From: Geothrix edaphica | GTDB taxonomy: Bacteria; Acidobacteriota; Holophagae; Holophagales; Holophagaceae | NCBI RefSeq assembly: GCF_030268045.1 | Contig: NZ_BSDC01000003.1 | Coordinates: 1 to 64,000 of the forward strand | Direction of reading: 5' to 3' | Length of the DNA: 64,000 nucleotides | Shown: positions 3,383 to 62,401 of the stretch, piece after piece | How the letters are laid out: the number at the start of each line of letters is the position of its first letter | Position numbering within the stretch: position 1 is the stretch's first letter | Notes under the pieces: model-generated | Told to the model about the DNA's origin: nothing | Database searches by the model: none | What the model saw: the letters and a program-made list of their open reading frames with translations, nothing else | Translations under genes and position numbers: made by a program

Positions 3383-4213
3383 TCAGGCCAGAGCCACGAG
3401 GATTCGATCGTGGCCCGCAAAATCCTGATGCACCATGGCCTTCCCCCAGCCCGCCCCGTGGGCCCGGCGACACAGCTCGCCCCCCTGGCCGGCCCCGATC
3501 TCCAACAGACAGGCCGGCGCCCGGCGCGCCTTGGCGGAGGTCAGCAGCTCCGCCGACAGGGCCAGTCCCCGGTCGGGAGCGAAGAGGGCCGAAGCCGGCT
3601 CGAAGGCCAGTTCCCTCTGCAGCCCCGGCTCGTCCGCGGGGTCGACATAGGGCAGGTTGGCCACCACCAGGCCCAGGGGATCCGGGACAGAATCCAGCAA
3701 GTGCCCCTCGAAAAAGGCCACCCTGGCGCCCAGGGCCCTGGCGTTCTCTCTGGCGACGGCCAGGGCACCCGGGCTCAGGTCCGTGGCCGATACCTGCCAG
3801 TCCGTCTCCAGCGCCAGGCTCGTGGCGATGATGCCGCTGCCCGTGCCCACATCCACACAGCGATCCACGCCCAACCGCCCCCCCACCTCCAGGGCCGCCT
3901 CCACCAGAAGATCCGTTTCCGGACGGGGGATCAGCGTATCGACCGTGACCCGGAAGCGGCGGTCGCGGAACAGGCTCCAACCCAGGATGTAGGCCCAGGG
4001 CTCGCCCGTCTTCCTCCGGCGCGTCCAGGCTCCTACCTGCCGCCGGACGGATTCCGGGGCCAGGTCACCCCCGTGGGCCGCCATCCAGCTGCGCGACAGG
4101 TCGAGTCCCTCCTCGAACCAGCGGACACTCTCCGCGTGGGCCTCGGAGGGATCGAGGAACCCGGCAAGGGCCGCGCCCAGATCGAGGCGGAGCTGTCGGT
4201 ACGTCTGGACCAT
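3383..4213 (-). CDS. prmC: Peptide chain release factor N5-glutamine methyltransferase PrmC
   Basis: PrmC (HemK) methylates the glutamine of the GGQ motif of release factors RF1/RF2 using S-adenosylmethionine. The 276-residue product has the N-terminal helical domain, the segment TGEPWAYILGWSLFRDRRF, the IPRPETDLLVE motif, the SAM-binding VDVGTGSGIIA loop (about residues 117-127) and the substrate motif in the form NLPYVDP. The usual PrmC motif is NPPY; the leucine is a variant. Context gives little help, since neighbours are a FlgM-like gene and fumarase genes. RsmA also has NLPY, but the N-terminal domain and IPRPETD identify this one as PrmC. Confidence 0.9.
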   Translation of the reverse strand: MVQTYRQLRLDLGAALAGFLDPSEAHAESVRWFEEGLDLSRSWMAAHGGDLAPESVRRQVGAWTRRRKTGEPWAYILGWSLFRDRRFRVTVDTLIPRPETDLLVEAALEVGGRLGVDRCVDVGTGSGIIATSLALETDWQVSATDLSPGALAVARENARALGARVAFFEGHLLDSVPDPLGLVVANLPYVDPADEPGLQRELAFEPASALFAPDRGLALSAELLTSAKARRAPACLLEIGAGQGGELCRRAHGAGWGKAMVHQDFAGHDRILVALA

Positions 4214-4259
4214 CTCTCCAGCCTAGCAAGGGAGGGCCGATTCCAGAACGCCGGGCGGC

Positions 4260-4838
4260 TCAGGCCATCAGGGCCTTGGCGCGCTCCTGGCTTTGCTGGG
4301 CGACGATCTCGTGGAGGCTGCCGCCGTGGCTGTCCATGGTGACGACCAGGGGGAAATCCTCCACCTCGATGATCCAGAAGGCCTCGGGGCTGCCGAACTC
4401 CTCCAGCATCTTGACGTCCACCACGCGCTTGCAGCGCTCGGCCAGCAGGCTGCCGGCGCCGCCCGTGGCGTGGAGGTAGACGGCCCCGGTCTTCTGGAGG
4501 CCCTCGCTGGTCTTCTTGCCCATGCCGCCCTTGCCGATGACGCCGCGAACCTTGTAGGTCTCGATGACATCGGCCTGATAGGGCTCCTCGCGGATGGAGG
4601 TGGTGGGGCCCGCGGCCACGAAGCTGTAGTGGCCGTCCTCGTGCTTCTTCACGACTGGGCCGCAGTGGTAGATGACCATGTTCTCGAGGATGGGCTTCAG
4701 CCACTCGGGCTTCTGCTCTTTCATGTACTTGTGGCCCATGTCACGGCTGAGGACGACGCGGCCGTTGAGCAGCACTTCGTCGCCGACCTTGAGCTGGCGG
4801 ATCTGGTCTTCGGTGATGGGGGTGGTGAGACGGATCAT
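4260..4838 (-). CDS. Fumarate hydratase class I, beta (C-terminal) subunit
   Basis: This is the small subunit of the oxygen-sensitive iron-sulfur fumarase, which interconverts fumarate and malate in the citric acid cycle. The 192 residues contain the domain's typical segments: GRVVLSRDMGHKYM, a GPTTSIRE loop and VIGKGGMGKKT. It starts 21 bases after the alpha subunit, with GAGG upstream of its ATG, so the two form an operon (alpha first). The fused, single-chain form is common in other bacteria; here the subunits are separate. The related two-subunit L-tartrate dehydratase is an alternative that the sequence alone does not fully exclude. Confidence 0.88.
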   Translation of the reverse strand: MIRLTTPITEDQIRQLKVGDEVLLNGRVVLSRDMGHKYMKEQKPEWLKPILENMVIYHCGPVVKKHEDGHYSFVAAGPTTSIREEPYQADVIETYKVRGVIGKGGMGKKTSEGLQKTGAVYLHATGGAGSLLAERCKRVVDVKMLEEFGSPEAFWIIEVEDFPLVVTMDSHGGSLHEIVAQQSQERAKALMA

Positions 4839-4859
4839 GTTGAGCCTCGTCGTCGCGGA

Positions 4860-5840
4860 TCAGTCGAAGGACACTTCGCCGTTGGTCTTGAGCGTGATCG
4901 AGCCCCGGCGGCTGCTCCAGCACATGTAGCTGATGGAGACATAGAAGCTGGCGGGGTGGCGATACATCTCCTCCGCCATGACGCCCAGCACGGTGGTGTT
5001 GCCGCCGTAGCCCATGGGGCCGATGCCCAGGGTGTTGAGATCGTTCGTGATCTCCTTCTCGAAGGCGTCCATCTTCGGGTCGGGGTTCGGGGTGCCGAGC
5101 TTGCGGAGGATCAGCTCCTTGCTCTTCTCGTAGCTGGAGACGCGATCCCCGCCGATGGCCACGCCGAGGATGCCCGGGCTGCAGCCCTGGCCCTGGGCCT
5201 TCACGACGGCGTCGATGATGCACTTGCGCACCCCCTTGATGTCACGGCCCGCACCGATGGCGGCGTCCGGCAGGCGGTACTGGGCCCCCACGTTCTCACA
5301 GCCCCCGCCTTTCTGCATGACGGCGATCTCGACTTCCGGCTTGTCCCACTCCTCGAAGTGGACGGCCGGGTGACCCTCATGGAAGGGATCCATGTTGGTG
5401 CCCGTGTTCTTGCCGCTGAGGGCCTCGACGCAGTTGGGGCGCAGCCAGGACCGCTTGGTGGCCTCGGCCACCGCCGCCCGGATCTGCTGCTTGGCGGCGC
5501 GCTGGCTCAGCCCGAAGGGATGGCGCACCCAGACGATGATGGTGCCCGTGTCCTGGCAGAGGGGCGAGACGTTGCCATCCGCGAGGATGATGTTCCGCAC
5601 CATGTCGTTGAGCGTGTTGAAGGCCCGGCTGCCTTCCTCCTCGGCGTCGCGGCCCTTCACCAGGGCGTCGATCACATCCTGGGGCAGGCGGCTGGTGGAC
5701 CGGCGTAGCAGCTCCAGCATGGGCAGGGTGAGGTCCAGGGACTTGAGGTCCTTGAGATTGGGTTTCCATCCGGCGGGCAACACGGACTTGGACGCCACCA
5801 CCTCATTGGAGGTCAGGGTGGGAATGACGCACTCAGACAT
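4860..5840 (-). CDS. Fumarate hydratase class I, alpha (N-terminal) subunit
   Basis: This large subunit carries the [4Fe-4S] cluster of class I fumarase. The 326-residue protein has three candidate cluster cysteines in the expected contexts: PLCQDTGT, KGGGCENVG and GCSPGILGVAIGG. The GPMGYGGNTT segment and the SYMCWSSRRG end are also family-typical. A strong GGAGG precedes the ATG. It is the first gene of a two-gene unit with the beta subunit. The product acts in the cytoplasm. L-tartrate dehydratase alpha is the alternative, but with no transporter or regulator nearby a citric-acid-cycle role is more likely. Confidence 0.9.
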   Translation of the reverse strand: MSECVIPTLTSNEVVASKSVLPAGWKPNLKDLKSLDLTLPMLELLRRSTSRLPQDVIDALVKGRDAEEEGSRAFNTLNDMVRNIILADGNVSPLCQDTGTIIVWVRHPFGLSQRAAKQQIRAAVAEATKRSWLRPNCVEALSGKNTGTNMDPFHEGHPAVHFEEWDKPEVEIAVMQKGGGCENVGAQYRLPDAAIGAGRDIKGVRKCIIDAVVKAQGQGCSPGILGVAIGGDRVSSYEKSKELILRKLGTPNPDPKMDAFEKEITNDLNTLGIGPMGYGGNTTVLGVMAEEMYRHPASFYVSISYMCWSSRRGSITLKTNGEVSFD

Positions 5841-37894: not shown

Positions 37895-38023
37895 AGCCAC
37901 AGATGAACACATATAAACACTGATTAAGAACTAGATAATCCAGGTACAGCCATCCATATCCATGTTCCTCCCCCCGGCAACGCATGCCTGGCCAGGGATC
38001 TTAGGTTGTGTTTATCCGTGGCC
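37895..38023. repeat. CACAGATGAACACA-type inverted repeat (repeat family B)
   Basis: AGCCACAGATGAACACA at 37895-37911 is mirrored by GGTTGTGTTTATCCGTGGCC at 38004-38023, whose complement reads GGCCACGGATAAACACAACC. The arms differ at a few bases and lie about 90 bases apart in the scpA-lipA divergent gap. I have seen strings like this in intergenic DNA of unrelated bacteria, but cannot verify that here. Confidence 0.7.
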
Positions 38024-38045
38024 ATTCCCCCCACAATGGAAGGCT

Positions 38046-38930
38046 ATGGCCCGCCCTCCCGTCCTCCCCGGCCCCCGCCCCGACTGGCTGAAGATCCGCG
38101 TGCCGGCGCCGGAGGTGGTGGCGGAAGTCGAGGGACTGATCCGCGAGCAGCGGCTGGTCACGGTCTGCGAGGAGGCCCGCTGCCCGAACCTGCATGAGTG
38201 CTGGGGCGTCCACCGGACGGCCACCTTCATGCTCATGGGCGACATCTGCACGCGCCACTGCGGGTTCTGCAATGTGGGCAAGGGACGTCCCGGCGAGCTG
38301 GACCCCGATGAGCCCCAGCGCGTGGCCGAAGCGGTGGCCCGGCTGGGACTGAAGTTCGCCGTGGTGACCTCCGTGAACCGCGATGACCTGCCGGATGGCG
38401 GCTCGGCGCACTTCGCCGCCACCATCCAGTGGATCCGGACCCTGTCGCCCCAGTGCGGCATCGAAGTGCTCATCCCGGATTTCCGGGGCAGCGAGGCCGC
38501 CCTGCTCACGGTGCTGGAGGCCCGGCCCGACGTGCTGAACCACAACGTGGAGACGGTACCCCACCTCTACCGGCGCGTGCGGCCGGACGCCGACTACCTC
38601 CAGAGCCTCGCAGTGCTGCGCCGCACGGCGGAGTGGCGGGATGCCCACGCCCCGGGCATGCGCGTGAAGAGCGGCATCATGGTGGGCCTGGGAGAGACGC
38701 CGGAGCAGGTGCTCACCCTCATGGCCGACTGGCGCGCCTCCCGCGTGGACATCGCGACCATTGGGCAGTACCTCCCGCCTTCAGAGCTGCACCTGCCGCT
38801 GGACCGCTTCGTGGAACCCGCCGAGTTCGACATGTACCGCCGGAAGGGCCTGGACATGGGCTTCCAGCGCGTGGAATCCGCCCCTCTGGTGCGCTCCAGC
38901 TACCACGCCAAGGAGAGTTTCGAGGGCTGA
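38046..38930 (+). CDS. lipA: Lipoyl synthase LipA
   Basis: LipA is a radical-SAM enzyme that inserts two sulfurs into the octanoyl group on lipoyl-domain lysines. The 294-residue product has the auxiliary cluster cysteines C41, C46 and C52 (CEEARCPNLHEC), the radical-SAM CTRHCGFC (C68, C72, C75) and the C-terminal RSSYHA that supplies the serine ligand. GGAAGG lies upstream of ATG 38046; the frame is open further upstream, but that reads through the repeat. It is convergent with the operon that ends in a GcvH-like response regulator, 35 bases away. Confidence 0.96.
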   Translation: MARPPVLPGPRPDWLKIRVPAPEVVAEVEGLIREQRLVTVCEEARCPNLHECWGVHRTATFMLMGDICTRHCGFCNVGKGRPGELDPDEPQRVAEAVARLGLKFAVVTSVNRDDLPDGGSAHFAATIQWIRTLSPQCGIEVLIPDFRGSEAALLTVLEARPDVLNHNVETVPHLYRRVRPDADYLQSLAVLRRTAEWRDAHAPGMRVKSGIMVGLGETPEQVLTLMADWRASRVDIATIGQYLPPSELHLPLDRFVEPAEFDMYRRKGLDMGFQRVESAPLVRSSYHAKESFEG

Positions 38931-38965: not shown

Positions 38966-40087
38966 TCAGGCCTTGGCGTGATCGCCCAGGCCCAGGAACT
39001 GCTTCTCGAAGGAGGACCAGTCCACGGCACCGGTGGCCTGGGGCGCATCCGCGGTCCGGAGACGGGTGATCTCATCCTGATACCAGTCGATGACCGGCTG
39101 GCCGATCTTGAGGGCCGGCAGCTCGCCCGCGAGATCACTCGGCGTCATCAGGCAGACCCAGCCGCGGTCATAGGGGCTGTGCATGAGCTCGGCGGGATCG
39201 GAGAGCAGGCCCGCATTGTCGTGCTCGATGCGGCCGCTGAGGGGCGCAGCCACATGCACCTCGCCTGCGGCGCCCTTCAGGGTGAACAGGGTCTCGCCCT
39301 GGCGGAAGGTCTTCCCGCGCTCCGGGAGGATCACGCCCTTCACCTGGCCGAGGGCCTTGCGCACGAAGTCGTCGATGCCCACGCGGACCTGGCCTTCCGG
39401 CTCGATGCGCACCCAGGCATGGCCCGTGGACAGGAAGGCGCCGCCCGGCACGCAGAACTCGCTGGCGGACACCACCTCAGCCATTTCCGGAGCCACCACG
39501 CGGACGTTCGGGCGCCGCTGGGCCTCGATGCGCGCCTCGCGCTTGATGAGGAGCTTCTTCGCGAACTCCGCGAGCTCGTCGGCAGTGAAGGGCTTCTGGA
39601 CGTATTCGCAGGCACCGTGCTGGAGCGTCTGCACGGCGGTATCGATGCTGCCGTAGCCGGTGATCACGACCACATCGACATCCGGCCGCAGGTGCTTGGC
39701 CGCCTTCACCACCTCCACGCCATCCATATCCGGCATCTTGAGGTCGGTGAAGAGGAAGTCATAGTCGTGCCGCTGGATCAGGCCCAGGGCCTCGGGACCG
39801 TGCTCCACCGTGTCCACGCTGAAGCCCTCGAGCACGAGGATGCGACGGAAGGAGTCGAGCACCACGGCCTCATCGTCCACGGCCAGGATGCGGGCCCTGG
39901 GATTGGGGACCTCCACCCGTTTGAGGCTCTTGGCCTCGTGGGTGAAGTCGAGGTGGATGGAGGTGTTCAACACGGCTTCCCGGGCCTGCCGCTCGCGGGT
40001 TTCACGCATGCGGCGCAGGCTCGTGCGCACCAGGAAGTCGATGCCCACGAAGGCGACGAACATGAAAAGGATCAACAGGGCGGTCAT
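38966..40087 (-). CDS. Membrane-anchored response regulator with GcvH-like C-terminal domain
   Basis: The 373-residue protein has an N-terminal transmembrane helix (about 2-22), a receiver domain (about 65-185; acidic pair D71/D72, phospho-acceptor D115 in FTDLKMPDMDG, K165 in VQKPF) and, from about residue 210 to 340, a GcvH-like fold (STGHAWVRIEPEGQVRVGI, LPERGKTFRQGE, APLSGRIEHDN, DRGWVCLMTPSDL). There is no DNA-binding output. The nearest lysine, K271, is 11 residues before the AP of APLSG against 8 in GcvH, so lipoylation is uncertain. AGGAGG precedes the ATG. It is the last gene of a redox operon. Anchoring of a receiver this way is unusual. Confidence 0.85.
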   Translation of the reverse strand: MTALLILFMFVAFVGIDFLVRTSLRRMRETRERQAREAVLNTSIHLDFTHEAKSLKRVEVPNPRARILAVDDEAVVLDSFRRILVLEGFSVDTVEHGPEALGLIQRHDYDFLFTDLKMPDMDGVEVVKAAKHLRPDVDVVVITGYGSIDTAVQTLQHGACEYVQKPFTADELAEFAKKLLIKREARIEAQRRPNVRVVAPEMAEVVSASEFCVPGGAFLSTGHAWVRIEPEGQVRVGIDDFVRKALGQVKGVILPERGKTFRQGETLFTLKGAAGEVHVAAPLSGRIEHDNAGLLSDPAELMHSPYDRGWVCLMTPSDLAGELPALKIGQPVIDWYQDEITRLRTADAPQATGAVDWSSFEKQFLGLGDHAKA

Positions 40088-40096
40088 GGGAACCTC

Positions 40097-41626
40097 CTAG
40101 GTGGTGGTGGGGATGAGGGGCTGGCCGCCCCCGCCGCTTTCAGTGGATGCGGGAATGCGAAGGGTGAAACAGGTGCCCTGGCCGGGGTCGCTGCGGACCT
40201 CCAGGGCCCCGCCATGAGCTTCCACGATGCCCCAGCTCACGGCGAGTCCGAGCCCCGTGCCGTGGTTGCCCTTGGTGGTGTAGAAGGGCTCGAAGATCCG
40301 CGGCAGGTCTTCCGGCGGAATACCCCGGCCATTGTCCATGACCAGCAGCTCCACGGAACCACCCTCCCCGGTCTGCGTGGCGACGCGGATGGTGCCGCCG
40401 CCATCGCCGATGGCATCCCCCGCGTTGAGCAGCAGGTTCACGGCCACCTGCTGGATCTGGTTGCCATCCGCCGGCACCACGGGAAGCTCCGCCGCCAGGT
40501 CCAGCGACAGGTCCACCTGGTTGAGCGAAAGCTGGGTCATCACGACGGACACGGCCCGCCGCACGACCTCGTTCAGGTCCATGGGCTTCCGGGCGGGCGG
40601 TGTGGGCCGCGCGAAGTCCAGCAGGCCCCGGATGATCCCGCGGCAGCGCACCGTCTCCCGCACGATCACATCCAGGTCCTCCGCAGCCTCCGCATCATCG
40701 GCGAGACGCTTCCGCAGCAGGGAGGCGTAGCTGAGCACGCCGGTCAGCGGGTTGTTGATCTCATGGGCGACCCCCGCCGCCAACCGGCCCACTGAGGCCA
40801 GCTTGTCGGCCTGGGCCAGCTGCCGCTGGGTCTCGGCCAACCGCTGGGTCATGGTATTGAAGGCCACGGCCAGCTCACTCAGTTCATGGTTGCCGCTCAC
40901 GGGGATGGTCGTGCCGAGGTCGCCCTCGCCCACCCGCCGGGTGCCGGCCACCAGGGCCGCCACAGGCCGGACCACCAGCCGCCGGTTGAGCCACCAGAGA
41001 ATCAGGCTGCCCGCCAGGATGGCGGCGGCGGCCGAGAGCATGATCAGCATCCGGCTGCGGGCGATCTCGCGATCCACCTCCGCGAGGGAGATGTTCACAT
41101 CCAGGACGCCCAGGAGGCTCTGCTTGGCGCTGTGGGCGTGGCAGGCCGCCGTCGAACAGGAAGGCTCGTTGGGAATGGGATTGATGAGGCCCAGGACGCG
41201 GGTTCCATCCGAGGCCCGGAAGGTCCGGGCGCGGGCCTGGATGCCCAGGCGCTCCAGGGGCCGCCCCTCGGCGTGGCAGGCGTAGCAGGCCTCTCCCCGG
41301 ATATCGAGGCTGGTGCCGATTTCCTCCTCGGCGGAGGAGAACATGATGCGCCCCTCCTTGTTGAAGACCCGGACCTTCTGGATGCCCTCGCCCCGGAGGC
41401 CGCCCACGGCGCGGATCTGCCGGTGCAGGTTCTCCCGGCGGTTCTCCAGCATGTCGAAGTGGGTGGCGCTCTTGATCGTCTCACTCAGCTGATCGGCACT
41501 GCGGGTGCGCTCCGCCAGGAGCTGGGCGGTGTGCGACCGGAGGAGGGCGAAGGCCATGCCCCCGATCACCGCCGCCGTGGCGAGGCCGGCGCCGAGGATC
41601 AGACGAGTGCCGATGCGGGTCCGCAT
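40097..41626 (-). CDS. Histidine kinase with haem-binding-type periplasmic sensor
   Basis: The 509-residue protein has two transmembrane helices (about 10-30 and 192-212) flanking a periplasmic domain, then HAMP (about 212-265), the phospho-acceptor H-box (GVAHEINNPLTG, H288) and an ATP-binding domain (NLLLNAGDAI, DNGRGIPPED, GTGLGLAVSWGI). The periplasmic domain contains CYACH (114-118), a c-type haem motif, and CSTAACH (157-163), a CX4CH variant. Hence a redox or ligand sensor with bound haem is likely. It lies between the NrfD-type subunit and the response regulator in one operon, and is presumably the partner of that regulator. Confidence 0.88.
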   Translation of the reverse strand: MRTRIGTRLILGAGLATAAVIGGMAFALLRSHTAQLLAERTRSADQLSETIKSATHFDMLENRRENLHRQIRAVGGLRGEGIQKVRVFNKEGRIMFSSAEEEIGTSLDIRGEACYACHAEGRPLERLGIQARARTFRASDGTRVLGLINPIPNEPSCSTAACHAHSAKQSLLGVLDVNISLAEVDREIARSRMLIMLSAAAAILAGSLILWWLNRRLVVRPVAALVAGTRRVGEGDLGTTIPVSGNHELSELAVAFNTMTQRLAETQRQLAQADKLASVGRLAAGVAHEINNPLTGVLSYASLLRKRLADDAEAAEDLDVIVRETVRCRGIIRGLLDFARPTPPARKPMDLNEVVRRAVSVVMTQLSLNQVDLSLDLAAELPVVPADGNQIQQVAVNLLLNAGDAIGDGGGTIRVATQTGEGGSVELLVMDNGRGIPPEDLPRIFEPFYTTKGNHGTGLGLAVSWGIVEAHGGALEVRSDPGQGTCFTLRIPASTESGGGGQPLIPTTT

Positions 41627-41629
41627 GGC

Positions 41630-42796
41630 TCAGGCTCCCACTGCGGGTTCCTTGGATCGACCGGCCACCGGGCCATCCGGGAAGATCGAGAAGGTCCGCA
41701 CGGCGAAGGCGAAGACCGCCATGCCCGTGGCCACCAGGCCCAGGGAGACGATGATCTCCATGGCCGAGGGGAGATACCGCGTGCCGGAAGCCGCCTCCAT
41801 GCCCGTGATACTGACGTTCAGCCGGTTCATGACGAAGCCCAGCACCGCCAGGAAGGCACCGCCCACCAGCCAGTCCGGGTTGGTGCGCAGCCGCCGGAAG
41901 GACATCAGGACCACGGGCAGCACCACGCCGAGCAGGAACTCCACAAGGAACATCCGGCCTTCGTAGCTGCCCAGGGTCCCGAAGGCATGGTTGCGGGCGA
42001 TGCCCTGCAGGCGCATGAGGCCGTAGATGCCCAGCGCCACCACCATGCCGCGGGCCAGGGGCTCCAGGAGGTCCATCTCCAGGTGGCGGTGGAAGGCCCG
42101 CTTGCTGAGGTAGGACTCGAGGATGACCATGCCGATCCCGGCCCCGATGGCGGAAATGTAGAAGTACAGCGGGAGCATGGGCGAGTACCACAGCGGGTGC
42201 AGCTTGCTGGGGACGATGAGGTACAGCGAGCCCAGCGAGGACTGGTGCAGGGTCGAGAGGAGCACGCCGAGGATCACCAGGGGCGTGATGAGCCGGTGGA
42301 TGAGCCGCGCCGGGGCATGGAAGCCGAACCGCTCGAAGACCACCGGGGAGAACTCCACCGCCAGCACCGTGGTGTAGAGCATCACGCACCAGGCCACTTC
42401 GAACATGACGGAGTGAGTGTTCCAGTAGACGATGGCATGCCAGATGCGCCAGGGCTGCCCCAGATCCAGCAGCAGGGCCACGATCACGAAGGCGTAGCCG
42501 AGGAACCCGGTGAGGATCGTCGGGCGGACGATGGGCTCGAATCGCTTGAGGTTGAAGAGGTGCACCACGGCGGTGAGGGTGAACGCCCCAGCGGCCAGGC
42601 CCACGCCGCAGAGCAGGTCGAAGCCGATCCAGAGGCCCCAGGGGAACTGGTCGCTCAGGTTGGTGACCGCGCCCAGCCCCTTGGTGTAGCGGATGACGGT
42701 CACGGTGCAGAACGCCAGGAAGAGGACGACGAAGACCGCGGTCCAGAAGCCGGGGCGGAACCGGCGGGGCGCGGCGAGCGCAGCGAGGGTGTTCAT
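41630..42796 (-). CDS. NrfD/HybB-type integral membrane subunit
   Basis: The 388-residue protein is almost wholly membrane-embedded (about 10 helices), with the family start GFWTAVFVVLFLAFCTVTVI and the segment FPWGLWIGFDLLCGVGLAAGAF, plus YISAIGAGIGMVILES. NrfD/HybB/PsrC-type proteins exchange electrons with the quinone pool and pair with a four-cluster ferredoxin-like protein, which is encoded just upstream (ATGA overlap). A molybdopterin or hydrogenase subunit is absent from this locus, so the electron partner is unknown. The acidic and His residues of the family are not checked position by position. Confidence 0.9.
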   Translation of the reverse strand: MNTLAALAAPRRFRPGFWTAVFVVLFLAFCTVTVIRYTKGLGAVTNLSDQFPWGLWIGFDLLCGVGLAAGAFTLTAVVHLFNLKRFEPIVRPTILTGFLGYAFVIVALLLDLGQPWRIWHAIVYWNTHSVMFEVAWCVMLYTTVLAVEFSPVVFERFGFHAPARLIHRLITPLVILGVLLSTLHQSSLGSLYLIVPSKLHPLWYSPMLPLYFYISAIGAGIGMVILESYLSKRAFHRHLEMDLLEPLARGMVVALGIYGLMRLQGIARNHAFGTLGSYEGRMFLVEFLLGVVLPVVLMSFRRLRTNPDWLVGGAFLAVLGFVMNRLNVSITGMEAASGTRYLPSAMEIIVSLGLVATGMAVFAFAVRTFSIFPDGPVAGRSKEPAVGA

Positions 42797-43572
42797 GACC
42801 GGTCCTCCCGTCCATTGCCTTGTCCATTGCGGCCGTGCCCGTTGCCATTGGCCCCGACCCTGGCCACCTCCTCACGCCTCGCGGTGATCCAGTGGACCCC
42901 GTACAGGAAGACGGCCCACACCGCGACGAAATCGGGGATGTTGGACAGCACCTGCCAGGTCTTCATGGCCGGCGGCTCGCCGGGCAGGTTGGACTTGAGG
43001 CCCAGCTTCTCGAAGGGCACGTTGGAGATCATCAGCACCGAGGTGCCCCCGGCCTCCGTGAGCCCGTAGATATGGTCCACATAGGCACCCGGCTTCTGGC
43101 GGATGCGGGTCCGGGCCTCCCAGATCAGGTCCTCCTTCTTGCCGAAGATGGTGGCCTCTGCCGGGCAGGCGGCAGCGCAGGCGGTGGGCTGCCCATCCTT
43201 GACGCGGCCCGCGCACATGATGCACTTGCCGACCACAGGCACGGGCCGGTCCCACTGGTATTTCGGAATCTCGAAGGGGCAGGCCATCATGCAGTACCGG
43301 CAGCCCATGCACCGCTCGGCGTCATAGACCACTGGTCCTTCGGGCGTCTTCTTCAGCGCGCCCACAGGGCAGACGGAGGCACAGGTGGGCACCTCGCAGT
43401 GCATGCACAGCTTGCGGACGTTGAGGCCCTCCTTTTCCTGGACTGTCGTCCAGGTGTAGGCCGTCAACACCTCCTCTACCTTCCCGGGTAGCTTGTTCTG
43501 CTCCTTGCAGGCGGAGCTGCAGGCGCCGCAACCGATGCAGCGCGTGGCGTCGAAGAGAAGGCCCATGCCCAC
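42793..43572 (-). CDS. Four-cluster ferredoxin-like subunit (HybA/NrfC type)
   Basis: The protein (259 residues from GTG 43572) has the four cysteine groups of this family: CIGCGACSSAC, CMHCEVPTCASVCP, CMGCRYCMMACP and CIMCAG with CAAACPAEA, each for a [4Fe-4S] cluster. A C-terminal transmembrane helix (DFVAVWAVFLYGVHWI) resembles HybA, and the tail is Asn/Gly-rich. I chose GTG 43572 because AGGAGA lies five bases upstream; ATG at 43566, 43608 or 43635 is also possible. There is no Tat signal, unlike HybA, so the clusters probably face the cytoplasm. It starts the operon. Confidence 0.85.
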   Translation of the reverse strand: MGMGLLFDATRCIGCGACSSACKEQNKLPGKVEEVLTAYTWTTVQEKEGLNVRKLCMHCEVPTCASVCPVGALKKTPEGPVVYDAERCMGCRYCMMACPFEIPKYQWDRPVPVVGKCIMCAGRVKDGQPTACAAACPAEATIFGKKEDLIWEARTRIRQKPGAYVDHIYGLTEAGGTSVLMISNVPFEKLGLKSNLPGEPPAMKTWQVLSNIPDFVAVWAVFLYGVHWITARREEVARVGANGNGHGRNGQGNGREDRS

Positions 43573-43878
43573 GGGTTCTCCTGCTTTTTCAAAGTTCCCG
43601 GGAGACATTCCCGGGGATTCGCAAGAAGCATCCATTCGAGCGGAATCATAGTCAACCCCTTGGTAGCAATTAAAAATGACTATGTTGTCTTGTATAAGAA
43701 AAAAGCCCCGCCTCTGCGAAGCACTTCCAAGGAACTACGCGGGTTAAGCCATATCGTTCTTTCCGCTATCTGCGCATATTTTCCGCTTTTCGCGCTCAGC
43801 CCCCCTACTGGTGTTTTTTTGTCACTTCGCAACGCATTCTTGGGACCTCAAAGTCCCCTTAACCCAGCCCGAGACGAA

Positions 43879-58844: not shown

Positions 58845-59201
58845 ATGACATTTCGCTGGTCGGTACCCCTGGGTCTTCTCGTGGCGCTCGGAGGCTGCGT
58901 GCTGACAGCCCAGCCCGGCCCGACCCGGAAGCTCCCGGCCCCGCACATCAAGGCGGGTGTGCACTGCTACGACTGCCACCATGAGGAGAATCCCACGAAG
59001 AAGGCCGTGGCCGCGGAATCCTGCATGGTCTGCCACGGGGACTACCCCGCCATGAAGGCCGTCACCCGGAATGTGAAGCCGAATCCCCACGATTCCCACC
59101 TGGGCGAGGTCTCCTGCACGGAATGCCACCGGCAGCATCAGCCCCCGGTTGTGAAATGCCTGGAGTGCCACGAGGGCAAGTTCAAGTTCAACGCGAAGTA
59201 G
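58845..59201 (+). CDS. Small tetrahaem cytochrome c
   Basis: The 118-residue product has a signal sequence with a possible lipobox (GGCV near residue 18) and four CXXCH motifs: CYDCH, CMVCH, CTECH and CLECH. Spacing resembles the tetrahaem domain of Shewanella small tetrahaem cytochrome and flavocytochrome c N-termini. It would shuttle electrons in the periplasm. It is first of the plus-strand cytochrome unit, 173 bases before the 42-haem gene. Confidence 0.88.
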   Translation: MTFRWSVPLGLLVALGGCVLTAQPGPTRKLPAPHIKAGVHCYDCHHEENPTKKAVAAESCMVCHGDYPAMKAVTRNVKPNPHDSHLGEVSCTECHRQHQPPVVKCLECHEGKFKFNAK

Positions 59202-59374
59202 CTCCAGCTGCACCCGCCCTCGCCAGGCGCGACATCCGTCACAGTTCCCGGCCAGTGGACACCGGCGCCTGGATCTTGCTCACCTCAAGGTCCACAATTC
59301 AAAGTGCCCCGAGGCGCCGCCTCGGCCCCTCACCACCCCGGCGTCCCGCGCCCTTCCCCCCCTCCCCCGAGTCC
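59202..59374. other. Gap between tetrahaem and 42-haem cytochrome genes
   Basis: These 173 bases are C-rich toward the 3' end and hold no gene that I can support. The 42-haem start (ATG 59375) has only a weak purine stretch upstream, so either the real start differs or expression is coupled from the previous transcript. Confidence 0.4.
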
Positions 59375-62300
59375 ATGCGGCTTCCGTCTCGGATCTTGCT
59401 CCTGGCGGCCTTCCTGGCCGGGGCGGGCGTCTCCCTGCACGCCCAGGGCCCCAAGCCGGCCTGCGCCGCCTGCCACGAACCGGCCGCCAGGCTGAGCGCC
59501 TCGCCCACCGCCCACAAGCCCCTCCGGGAGGGTCACTGCAAGTGGTGCCACCTGGAGCACGGGAAGGCCAATACCAACGTCCTGCATGCCTCCGGCGGCC
59601 GGGACCTGTGCCAGATCTGCCACCCGGCGTTCAAGCCCGCCGTGGGGGAGCGAGCCGCCCACCAGTTCGCCGGGAAGCGCGAATGCCTGGCCTGCCACGC
59701 AGCCCACGACAGCGGGCGCAAGGGCCTGCTCCCGAAGCCCGCTCAGGAGCTCTGCCTCTCCTGCCACGAGGCCGTCAGGGCGCGGCTCGGCCAGGCCCAT
59801 GCCCACAGCGCCGCCAAGGACGACTGCCTCGCCTGCCACCAGCCCCACCCATCCTCGACCAGCTTCCTGCTCAAGGAGAAGCCGGCGGAGCTGTGCGCGA
59901 CCTGCCACGACCTCGAGGCTCTGAAGGCGCCACACACGGGCATATCCCTGAAACCCTCAGGCTGCCTCTCCTGCCACGATCCCCATGGCTCGGCCGAGAA
60001 GGGCATGCTCCGGGACCGGCAGCACGCCCCCTTCTCCACCCGTGACTGCTCGAACTGCCACCAGGCCACCAAGGGCGGGAGTGCGCCCCTGGTCGAGCCG
60101 CCGCCAGCCCTCTGCCTGACCTGCCACGAGGCTCTCCCCGCCACCGACCATCCCCATGCCCCGGTGAAGGCCGGCAGCTGTCTCGACTGCCACGCCGCGC
60201 ACGCCTCGAACACCAAGGGCCTGCTCCAGAAGCCGGTCCCGGGCCTCTGCTCCGACTGCCACGCGAACCCCGCCAAGGAAGGTGACTCCCTCCATCCACC
60301 CTTCGAGGGGGGAACCTGCGGCGACTGCCACAAGCCTCACAGCTCGAAGGAGCAGAACCTCCTGACGGCGCCCCCGAAGCAGCTCTGCCTGACCTGCCAC
60401 GACGGTCTGCTCAAGGCCGCAGTCACCCACGCCCCCGCGAAAGCAGGCGACTGCCTGGCCTGCCACGGTGCCCACCTGGCCCCCAATGAGCATGTGCTGA
60501 AGGATACCCCCGAGAAGCTCTGCCAAGCTTGCCACCAGGACAAGGCGGCGACGCGGGTCCCCCATTTCCCCGTCAAAGAAGGCCGGTGCGGTGCCTGCCA
60601 TGCCCCCCATGCCGCCGACCGGCCGGGCTTGCTGAGGAAGGGCGAATTCGAGCTCTGCGGGGCCTGCCACAGAACCATCGTGGAACGGACGGTACTGCAC
60701 GCACCCGTGAAACAGGGTCAGTGCAGCGCCTGCCACCTGCCCCATGGCGGCCCCGATCCCCGGCTGCTGAAACAAGAGACGGAGAAGCTCTGCGCCAGCT
60801 GCCACGGCGAGCTCACCGGCAAAGGGCACGACCACCAGGCCCTAAAGAACAAGGCCTCCTGCCTCGCCTGCCACGACCCGCACGGTGGTAGCGTTCCCAA
60901 GCTGCTGACCCTGGCCCAGCCTGACCTCTGCTACCGGTGCCATGAGCGGAAGGACACCTTCCAGGTCGGACACGCCCCGGTGGAATCGGGTGCCTGCTCC
61001 ACCTGCCACGGCCCACACTCAGAGAAGGGCCCGTCCCTGCTGCGGACCCCCACCGCATCGGAAACCTGCCTCACCTGCCATGAGCTGGGCGGCAAGGCCT
61101 TCACGGAAAAGCACAAGGGCGCCACGCTGGCCGGCGCAAACTGCGTCGGCTGCCACGAATCCCACGCCTCGATGCAGAAGGGCCTCATCCTTCCCAACAT
61201 CCATCCCCCCTTCCTGGATGGCTGCGATTCCTGCCACACCACGCCGAACCAGCGCGGCGGCCTGGACCTGAGCGAACCGGTCCCGGGACTATGCCTCAAC
61301 TGCCACGAGGGCGCCAAGCCCAAGGAAGGTCTGACCGCGCACAACCCCTTCCGGGAAGGCCAGTGCCTAGCCTGCCATGGGCCCCACGCCTCGCGGTCCG
61401 AAGCGCTCCTGAACCGGCCCCAGAGTGGGACCTGCCTCACCTGCCACCCGACCCCGGAAGTCCCCAAGGGCGGCTGGGGGCACAAGCCCGTCCTCGAGAA
61501 CGCCTGCCGGACCTGCCACGCTCCCCACCAGTCCGAAGAGAAGGCCCTGCTCAGCGCCAAGCCAGCGGCCCTGTGCGTGACCTGCCACACCTCCATCGAG
61601 GAGAAGCTCAAGGCCAAACACCCCCATGCCCCTGCCGCCTCGGGGGACTGCCTGAGCTGCCACACGGCCCACACGGGCAAATTCGACCACGGGCTCGTCT
61701 CCCCGGTGGAGGAGCTGTGCGTGGGCTGTCATGTTGAGGCGGACCTGCAGCCCAAGCACAAGGGCTACGCGGTGGGCGCGAAGCAGTGCATCACCTGCCA
61801 CGATCCCCACGGCTCCGACAGTGGCGGCATGCTGAAGGGCAAGGGCCACCCCCCGGTGGCCGAAGGGGCCTGCGACACCTGCCATGCCGGACCCACGCCC
61901 GACAAGCCCTTCGGCCTGAACACTCCCCTGCCCGACCTCTGCTTCATGTGCCACGACAAAGTCGCCGCCGCCGCCAAGATGGCCTTCCCGCACCCCCCGG
62001 TGGTCAACGGGGAGTGTATGACCTGCCACGCACCCCACGCCTCCCAGTTGCCCTCGCTGCTGGCCGGCAATCCCAAGGACCTCTGCCTCCAGTGCCATGA
62101 CGGCCTGCAGAAGCAGGCCGAGCAGGCCGCCTCGCGGCACCAGCCCGTGATGGCGGGCCAGTGCGCCACCTGCCACACTTCCCACGGCGGCGAGTCCAAG
62201 GGTTTCCCCAAGGGCGACATCCAGAAGACCTGCCTCAGCTGCCACAAGGACAAGAGCGGGAATCATCCCCAGGCCAACCACCCCACGGGCGGCGTCACCA

Positions 62301-62401
62301 ACCCCTCCACTGGCAAGCCCCTGACCTGCCTCTCCTGCCACCAGCCACATTTCTCCAATGAACCCAACCTGCTCTACGTGGGCTGCACCAACTGCCACTA
62401 A
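59375..62401 (+). CDS. Secreted 42-haem cytochrome c
   Basis: The 1008-residue product has a signal peptide (MRLPSRILLLAAFLAGAGVSLHAQ) and 42 CXXCH motifs by my count, about one haem per 24 residues. They come in pairs (CxxCH ... LL ... CxxCH; typical CLTCHEAL, CLACHxPH) of the paired-CXXCH type, repeated with His-rich spacers (HAPVKAGxC), which supply distal ligands. There is no membrane anchor after the signal peptide. This suits a long electron-conducting cytochrome in the periplasm or outside the cell. It stands between a small tetrahaem cytochrome and an NrfJ-like lipoprotein. The exact partners and final acceptor are not shown. Confidence 0.93.
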   Translation: MRLPSRILLLAAFLAGAGVSLHAQGPKPACAACHEPAARLSASPTAHKPLREGHCKWCHLEHGKANTNVLHASGGRDLCQICHPAFKPAVGERAAHQFAGKRECLACHAAHDSGRKGLLPKPAQELCLSCHEAVRARLGQAHAHSAAKDDCLACHQPHPSSTSFLLKEKPAELCATCHDLEALKAPHTGISLKPSGCLSCHDPHGSAEKGMLRDRQHAPFSTRDCSNCHQATKGGSAPLVEPPPALCLTCHEALPATDHPHAPVKAGSCLDCHAAHASNTKGLLQKPVPGLCSDCHANPAKEGDSLHPPFEGGTCGDCHKPHSSKEQNLLTAPPKQLCLTCHDGLLKAAVTHAPAKAGDCLACHGAHLAPNEHVLKDTPEKLCQACHQDKAATRVPHFPVKEGRCGACHAPHAADRPGLLRKGEFELCGACHRTIVERTVLHAPVKQGQCSACHLPHGGPDPRLLKQETEKLCASCHGELTGKGHDHQALKNKASCLACHDPHGGSVPKLLTLAQPDLCYRCHERKDTFQVGHAPVESGACSTCHGPHSEKGPSLLRTPTASETCLTCHELGGKAFTEKHKGATLAGANCVGCHESHASMQKGLILPNIHPPFLDGCDSCHTTPNQRGGLDLSEPVPGLCLNCHEGAKPKEGLTAHNPFREGQCLACHGPHASRSEALLNRPQSGTCLTCHPTPEVPKGGWGHKPVLENACRTCHAPHQSEEKALLSAKPAALCVTCHTSIEEKLKAKHPHAPAASGDCLSCHTAHTGKFDHGLVSPVEELCVGCHVEADLQPKHKGYAVGAKQCITCHDPHGSDSGGMLKGKGHPPVAEGACDTCHAGPTPDKPFGLNTPLPDLCFMCHDKVAAAAKMAFPHPPVVNGECMTCHAPHASQLPSLLAGNPKDLCLQCHDGLQKQAEQAASRHQPVMAGQCATCHTSHGGESKGFPKGDIQKTCLSCHKDKSGNHPQANHPTGGVTNPSTGKPLTCLSCHQPHFSNEPNLLYVGCTNCH

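Follow-up and report, generated by a model that had tools for sequence, protein, structure and literature searches.

A membrane-anchored response regulator with a GcvH-like domain lacking the lipoyl lysine, encoded with NrfD and 4Fe-4S proteins and a predicted diheme histidine kinase in Geothrix edaphica

The window analyzed here, the whole stretch of 64,000 nucleotides at the start of a Geothrix edaphica contig, encodes a response regulator in which an N-terminal transmembrane helix and an intact receiver are joined to a domain with a GcvH-like fold. Genes for a 4Fe-4S protein, an NrfD protein and a histidine kinase lie upstream on the same strand and complete an operon (Table 1), and it is this operon, with its diheme kinase, NrfD protein and 4Fe-4S protein, that carries the regulator's meaning. 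The architecture of the regulator and its association with the operon are well supported; sequence comparison further shows the loss of the lipoyl site, the conservation of the operon and the co-inheritance of kinase and regulator. We propose, giving the idea about an even chance, that a heme-sensing system has here lost its transcription factor and that a receiver fused onto a GcvH-like adaptor gates electron transfer through NrfD and 4Fe-4S proteins at the membrane. The phosphorylated regulator would probably control the membrane redox complex directly. This complex is the simplest target because the regulator has no DNA-binding domain and is held at the membrane, and because GcvH-like domains of this kind occur beside NrfD and 4Fe-4S proteins and fused to an HdrC-like domain.

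Table 1. Features of the operon and its convergent neighbor, numbered from the first nucleotide of the window
Feature	Coordinates	Strand	Basis
lipA, convergent neighbor, probably outside the system	37962..38930	+	profile match
TM-receiver-GcvH response regulator, 373 aa	38966..40087	-	ORF call, Pfam, conservation, model, Foldseek
C-terminal helix and W-x2-F-x3-FL tail, residues 330-364	38996..39100	-	model/alignment
GcvH-like domain, residues 210-320, GxDDF signature	39128..39460	-	Pfam, phmmer vs PDB sequences, Foldseek
Hairpin matching the lipoyl arm, residues 266-280; K271 in strand, A274 at lipoyl column	39248..39292	-	alignment, model
Receiver domain, residues 64-180, D71 D72 D115 T143 K165	39548..39898	-	Pfam; invariant 32/32
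N-terminal transmembrane helix, residues 1-22, then basic stretch	40022..40087	-	mean hydropathy 2.45 (residues 1-19); model helix 2-42
Histidine kinase, 509 aa: periplasmic Cache-like sensor, HAMP, HisKA, HATPase_c	40097..41626	-	Pfam, model, Foldseek
Second heme motif Cx4CH, kinase residues 157-163	41138..41158	-	sequence motif, alignments
CxxCH heme motif, kinase residues 114-118	41273..41287	-	sequence motif, alignments
NrfD-type integral membrane protein (HybB/HmcC-like), 388 aa	41630..42796	-	Pfam NrfD 4e-27; NCBIfam HmcC 352.4 bits, cut-off 550
4Fe-4S protein (HybA/HmcB-like), 280 aa, C-terminal hydrophobic helix, no Tat signal seen	42793..43635	-	profile searches

Pfam analysis of the regulator up to E 1 identifies Response_reg (residues 67-174, E 1.3e-27, above the curated cut-off) and GCV_H (residues 222-320, E 1.2e-14, 54.7 bits against a cut-off of 22.2) only, and no DNA-binding domain of the AAA+ or HTH type. 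The first-pass annotation, made from the sequence alone, had described a complete receiver, a GcvH-like output and an N-terminal membrane anchor, and had argued that such a protein cannot act as a classical transcription factor; the receiver, the fold and the anchor are upheld, as is, by Pfam, the lack of a DNA-binding domain. The five receiver residues D71, D72, D115, T143 and K165 are all present and are invariant in the 32 aligned full-length fusions, and the first residues have the hydropathy of a membrane helix (Table 1). An AlphaFold2 model built from 32 sequences (mean pLDDT 84.9, pTM 0.52) runs from helix 2-42, of which the first ∼20 residues are hydrophobic, through the receiver, a linking helix (residues 169-191) and the GcvH fold to a helical tail; with this pTM, the relative placement of the domains is tentative. 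Foldseek against the PDB matches the GcvH part to the Thermus thermophilus H-protein (PDB ID: 1onl, rmsd 1.3, TM-score 0.93 by target) and the receiver part to CheY-like domains (PDB ID: 3crn, 0.93), and the NCBIfam GcvH profile scores the regulator at 59.7 bits, under its cut-off of 117. These comparisons confirm the reading of the gene as a response regulator with a membrane anchor, an intact receiver and a predicted GcvH fold. A loose W-x2-F-x3-FL-like pattern recovers the tail in 52 of 67 distinct fused GcvH-like domains and in 59 of 76 distinct separate ones. In the six most distant members, identity to the G. edaphica regulator is 64-71% over the receiver as against 34-43% over the GcvH part.

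The same annotation had considered a lipoyl-type, redox-active arm as the output, which comparison with a canonical GcvH does not support. G. edaphica encodes a canonical GcvH as a separate gene (C1:1124605, 138.8 bits), whose lipoyl lysine aligns to A274 of the regulator; K271 lies three columns earlier, the very offset that had been noted. In the model, K271 is indeed near the tip of the hairpin but is part of a strand (residues 266-272), and A274 holds the turn between this strand and the next (residues 275-280). Residue 271 is Lys in 21 of 32 fusions and Arg, Gln, Glu, His or Ile in the rest. We aligned the window's regulator and the canonical GcvH with 156 GcvH-like ORFs from the fetched loci, duplicates being kept. 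Of these 158 rows, 3 of 78 with a receiver and 4 of 80 without have Lys at the lipoyl column, where the window's regulator is labeled among the 80 and two of the four are canonical GcvH. This near-absence of Lys therefore marks a lipoate-free GcvH-like family, and it supports the loss of the lipoyl site in the regulator, which the annotation had raised as a possibility.

What of lipA itself? Its end and the stop codon of the regulator (position 38,966) are 35 bases apart, so that its reported position holds, but not the meaning attached to it: among 49 distinct loci labeled Holophagaceae-type (by locus number, L033-L043 and L053-L102 minus L094 and L098, and not from a tree), 34 have lipA no more than 400 bp away, as against 0 of 13 other fused loci. 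We therefore rejected lipA as a functional partner, its adjacency being local to the Holophagaceae-type loci. A lipoylated, or formerly lipoylated, redox arm under receiver control and linked to lipA could draw on the GcvH fold, the neighboring lipA and the place of K271 near the hairpin tip; with Ala at the lipoyl column, an unconserved K271 and a lipA adjacency that is local, we rejected it on the alignment and consider it very improbable.

The histidine kinase encoded directly upstream of the regulator has a model (pLDDT 83.4, pTM 0.74) with a Cache fold in its sensor, for which the best Foldseek matches are the sensors of WalK, DctB and CitA. Its CxxCH motif sits in a short helix between strands of this fold. 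Both CxxCH and Cx4CH are present in 59 of 59 distinct kinase fragments (named loci, >200 bits) and in all 20 rows aligned across phyla, and are invariant across the 40 rows used for the model. The sensor is predicted to bind two c-hemes. A Pfam match to Mcp40H-20_sensor falls below threshold, and PF11845 is absent among the matches at E 0.01.

The NrfD and 4Fe-4S subunits were identified by Pfam PF03916 and Fer4_11; the first-pass annotation had made no mention of their operon. The gene order HybA-HybB-kinase-fusion is found in the window and in 9 of 11 loci of the family, the remaining two being short contigs. Among 62 distinct fused loci we counted HybB in 52, HybA in 49, a histidine kinase in 56 and a diheme kinase in 54, some contigs being too short to judge. 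HybA has a Tat signal in L105, L106 and L108 and, judged by eye, in others, and none is seen in the window, L103 or L110. This inconsistency counts against direct control of the redox complex: the membrane side of HybA may vary, and a fixed contact between HybA and the GcvH-like domain is therefore unlikely, which makes HybB the better candidate. We do not claim the transmembrane helix of the regulator as an equivalent of HmcD, since the N-terminus in the window has no HmcD match; such matches were obtained for 3 of 10 N-termini tested, all from Bacteroidales, with E values of 9.6e-5 to 0.0072.

Several other genes were noted in these surroundings. About 15 kb from the operon, the window encodes a very large multiheme cytochrome of 1092 aa with 22 Paired_CXXCH stretches (59123-62401, +), and in the KSB1 locus L103 a Glu/Leu/Phe/Val dehydrogenase-type gene (4044-5306) lies between the NrfD and kinase genes. 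Another NrfD/HybA-like locus of G. edaphica (C1:412-415 kb, L153), which has its own sigma-54 activator, was considered as a missing partner and rejected; no GcvH-like gene was found there, and its larger ORFs carry no CxxCH.

Of the 46 other genomes in the genus, 44 encode a close match to the GcvH part, with E values of at most 1e-71 and reading frames of 310-489 aa; an orthologue is present in G. fermentans (L073). Elsewhere in the family, 8 of 14 genomes have a match with an E value of at most 1e-44, one of which (G052) is cut by a contig end that leaves its N-terminus unseen. All loci fetched from this set are fusions, except the contig-cut one. Given these matches, and fusions in other phyla, the regulator is not a chance ORF. 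From a scan of GTDB species genomes with two peptide patterns, the best 80 of 94 hits were kept as named loci, so that counts of distribution are lower bounds. TM-receiver-GcvH proteins were found in Holophagaceae, other Acidobacteriota, KSB1 (L103, L105), an unplaced bacterium (L104), Melioribacteraceae (L106) and Spirochaetota (L107, L108). A receiver-GcvH protein without a transmembrane helix is encoded directly upstream of the membrane-anchored fusion in L104, L106, L107, L108 and L136, and one fused locus (L047) has neither the transmembrane helix nor a diheme kinase. Two loci have an extra receiver directly upstream of the TM-receiver-GcvH gene, at the end of a 621-aa frame (L094:7512-9374) or as a 130-aa frame (L098:1-390), in the place that the soluble receiver-GcvH protein occupies in other loci.

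A tree of 107 GcvH-like domains places the 25 membrane-anchored fusions in a single clade (SH-aLRT 95) and the 6 soluble receiver-GcvH proteins in a separate one (SH-aLRT 88), and the fusion label requires 2 changes against 27 in shuffles; the tree omits 17 named loci (duplicates, truncated or canonical) and domains under 60 bits, and keeps 13 of the 50 loci L053-L102. The best reading is that the receiver-GcvH fusion arose twice, the soluble form separately, although this is not proven because the alignment has few columns and the deep forks are open. The receivers of the membrane-anchored fusions likewise form one clade of 22 (SH-aLRT 100) in a tree thinned similarly, from which receivers with <95 aligned residues were dropped. 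In the kinase tree, thinned likewise and limited to kinases >120 bits with both heme motifs, the 21 kinases from fused loci share a single clade (99) that excludes the 20 from separate loci. Both clades match the fused loci, and kinase and regulator have therefore been inherited together.

These patterns bear on a reading in which the receiver is a phosphate sink or a tuning element of the kinase, and the GcvH part a structural relic of the complex. Receivers that act as phosphate sinks exist, and the GcvH part holds no known catalytic residue. A mere relic sits poorly, however, with a fusion that seems to have arisen twice and with a G-x-D-[DE]-[FLVC] signature that is retained in 60 of 67 distinct fused domains, and most fused loci hold no second receiver regulator; we judge this reading improbable.

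Outside the fused loci, GcvH-like proteins are encoded as separate genes, often in pairs, in Acidobacteriota outside this family, Poribacteria, Bacteroidales and sulfate-reducing lineages. In many of these loci one paralog has an N-terminal transmembrane helix and a W-x2-F-x3-FL-type tail and the other is soluble. In some loci the soluble paralog has an N-terminal Cys motif, C[IL]WM..G....K.C...Y.C..C (L112:11657-12499, L120:6622-7500, L145:9285-10085, L147:8574-9323 and L149:6836-7702), which may possibly be a metal or Fe-S site; Pfam gave no significant family for the four Cys-rich N-termini tested (L110, L112, L120, L147). A protein of ∼560 aa with a GcvH-like C-terminus (L113:8861-10546) has homologues in Bacteroidales, and its N-terminal part matches PBP_like_2 weakly and below threshold.

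After duplicate contigs were merged, the set comprised 62 distinct fused and 44 distinct separate loci (73 and 47 before); L100, counted as separate, ends at a Holophagaceae contig end and may be a truncated fusion. HybA is present in 24 and HybB in 23 of the 44 separate loci. Sequence searches of the distinct loci found sigma-54 activators in 33 of 44 separate loci, with a REC-AAA-Fis architecture by Pfam in L113 and L127, as against 2 of 62 fused loci, and an M54 protein in 27 of 44 as against none of 62. The archaemetzincin-like M54 of L110 (16364-16942) scores above the cut-offs of Pfam (104.2 bits) and NCBIfam (174.7), similar ORFs were seen in L113, L115, L117, L122, L123 and L127-L129, and M54 adjoins the sigma-54 regulator in many separate loci; no M54 was found in the whole G. 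edaphica genome. Of the two exceptions among the fused loci, one encodes, 6.5 kb from the fusion, a sigma-54 activator in which no receiver was detected (L106:1528-2868), and the other has an activator fragment at a contig end (L105).

Promoters follow the same division. Strong sigma-54 sites, defined as a score of at least 14 of 15.8 with weights set from general knowledge, were found ahead of operon genes in 17 of the 44 separate loci but in none of 55 fused ones (Fisher p 1.2e-7, uncorrected for relatedness, the fused set being mostly one family); L045 and L122 here represent the same locus twice. The background in the separate set is ∼1% in shuffled upstream DNA and 3% at random places. 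In 16 of the 17 the site lies before a GcvH-like gene; Desulfosarcina cetonica (L129) reaches the full score of 15.8, and Draconibacterium orientale (L115) only 12.2. No strong site was found in the 13 fused members outside the main family, and 27 of the 44 separate loci have none either, some of them with NtrC (L110, L113). Lowering the threshold to 13 gives 21 of 45 separate and 3 of 55 fused loci. By these comparisons, fusion coincides with a lack of M54, of REC-AAA regulators and of strong sigma-54 sites.

Five separate loci of Desulfobacca/Desulfosarcina type (L117, L123, L127, L128, L129) encode GcvH-like proteins with a kinase and a regulator, and HybAB is absent from the stretch examined. 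In one of them (L123:9920-11014, by Pfam) a single protein joins a GcvH-like domain to an HdrC-like Fe-S domain, and HdrA- and HdrB-like genes lie next to it, which ties the GcvH-like fold to redox complexes elsewhere too; a GcvH-HdrC-like fusion in the same setting was noted, by resemblance, at L127:7806-8894.

We propose that two c-hemes in the periplasmic Cache domain of the kinase read a redox or gas signal, and that the kinase transfers a phosphate to D115 of the receiver, which the N-terminal helix keeps at the membrane. The lipoate-free GcvH fold would serve as an adaptor that docks on the NrfD/4Fe-4S (HybB/HybA-like) membrane electron-transfer complex, whose genes share its operon. Phosphorylation would shift the seating of the GcvH-like domain, or of the W-x2-F-x3-FL tail, on this complex, and the shifted seating would gate or re-route quinone-linked electron flow. 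Ancestrally, GcvH-like proteins would have been separate and their genes switched on by an NtrC-type regulator from sigma-54 promoters, a transcriptional step that the receiver-GcvH fusion would have replaced. The steps that we infer are heme binding by the sensor, phosphotransfer to the receiver, docking on the redox complex, post-translational control, and an evolutionary course from separate to fused genes. The full proposal is tentative, and we rate it somewhat below an even chance: receivers that became fused, on two independent occasions, to lipoate-free GcvH adaptors, in one case with a membrane tether, would have taken the place of a sigma-54 regulator, and the diheme sensor in the periplasm would thereby throttle quinone-linked electron transfer fast and without gene expression.

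Some of the loci described above speak against parts of this scheme. The loss of the transcriptional step has to contend with the sigma-54 activators of the two fused loci L105 and L106 and with the 27 separate loci that show no strong sigma-54 site. Against direct redox control stand the five loci that have GcvH-like proteins, kinase and regulator but no HybAB in the stretch examined, and the G. edaphica genome has 11 strong sigma-54 activators elsewhere that could receive the signal of the kinase. The GcvH-like domain might instead be a sensor or scaffold, which keeps the kinase and the receiver membrane-bound or signals the condition of the complex, with output passing to distant NtrC-type regulators by cross-talk. 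The 11 activators and the one in the L106 locus would suit this reading, as would the retention of kinase, receiver regulator and M54-like ORF beside GcvH-like proteins in loci where HybAB is absent from the stretch examined (L117, L123, L127). Sigma-54 activators, M54 and strong sites are, however, rare or absent in the fused loci, and the unusually conserved receiver looks as if it were tied to fixed partners. We consider cross-talk of this kind unlikely, but a serious alternative to direct control of the redox complex by the regulator.

Were direct control to hold, one signaling module would exist in a transcriptional and an apparently non-transcriptional form among related loci, and the switch between them would therefore be open to study by comparison. 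The literature searched yielded no description of a GcvH-like domain as a response-regulator output domain. Among the literature matches listed, which cover few subscription journals, receiver-GcvH regulators are undescribed, though domain databases may list the architecture, and GcvH-like proteins with NrfD and a two-component system are likewise without description. The wider family is a large one, lipoate-free and found beside redox complexes and signaling systems in several phyla, for which we found no assigned function.

Set beside known systems, the regulator shares with GcvH the fold (that of 1onl at rmsd 1.3) and a Pfam GCV_H match above cut-off, but it has no lipoyl lysine, has a GxDDF signature, and is fused to a receiver and a transmembrane helix. 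Of the studied cases in which a redox complex has recruited a GcvH-type protein, the nearest that we met in the literature searched is LbpA of Hdr-like sulfur oxidation (PMC6067878), and GcvH-like proteins of the regulator's family also occur beside Hdr-like genes (L123, and L127 by resemblance). According to the available part of that report, LbpA retains a strictly conserved lysine and works through lipoate, whereas in the regulator this lysine is gone. Complexes of the Hmc, HybAB and NrfD type have HmcB- and HmcC-like subunits in common with the operon; unlike Hmc, the four-gene operon of the window has no visible catalytic subunit or multiheme HmcA, and its scores lie under the Hmc cut-offs.

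On the sensory side, the kinase shares with the sCache_heme sensors (DUF3365/Tll0287), as far as the accessible text of a recent preprint describes them (PMC12889525), a Cache fold and a CXXCH motif in a short helix between strands; it differs in its additional Cx4CH motif and in having no PF11845 match. The same text reports that heme-bearing Cache domains bind NO, and an additional heme motif is reported in some Anaeromyxobacter (A. dehalogenans) and Geobacter sensors, according to the part of PMC3831638 available. NtrC-type systems (REC-AAA-Fis) are carried by most of the separate-GcvH loci, whereas the regulator of the window has neither AAA+ nor HTH and carries a GcvH-like domain as its output. 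Taken together, the operon suggests a sensor that acts on respiration directly and not through genes. A two-component protein that acts on a membrane complex beyond transcription has a precedent in KdpD, which, in the portion of PMC11018627 available, is described as controlling KdpFABC post-translationally too; there it is the kinase itself that acts on the complex, whereas here it would be the regulator.
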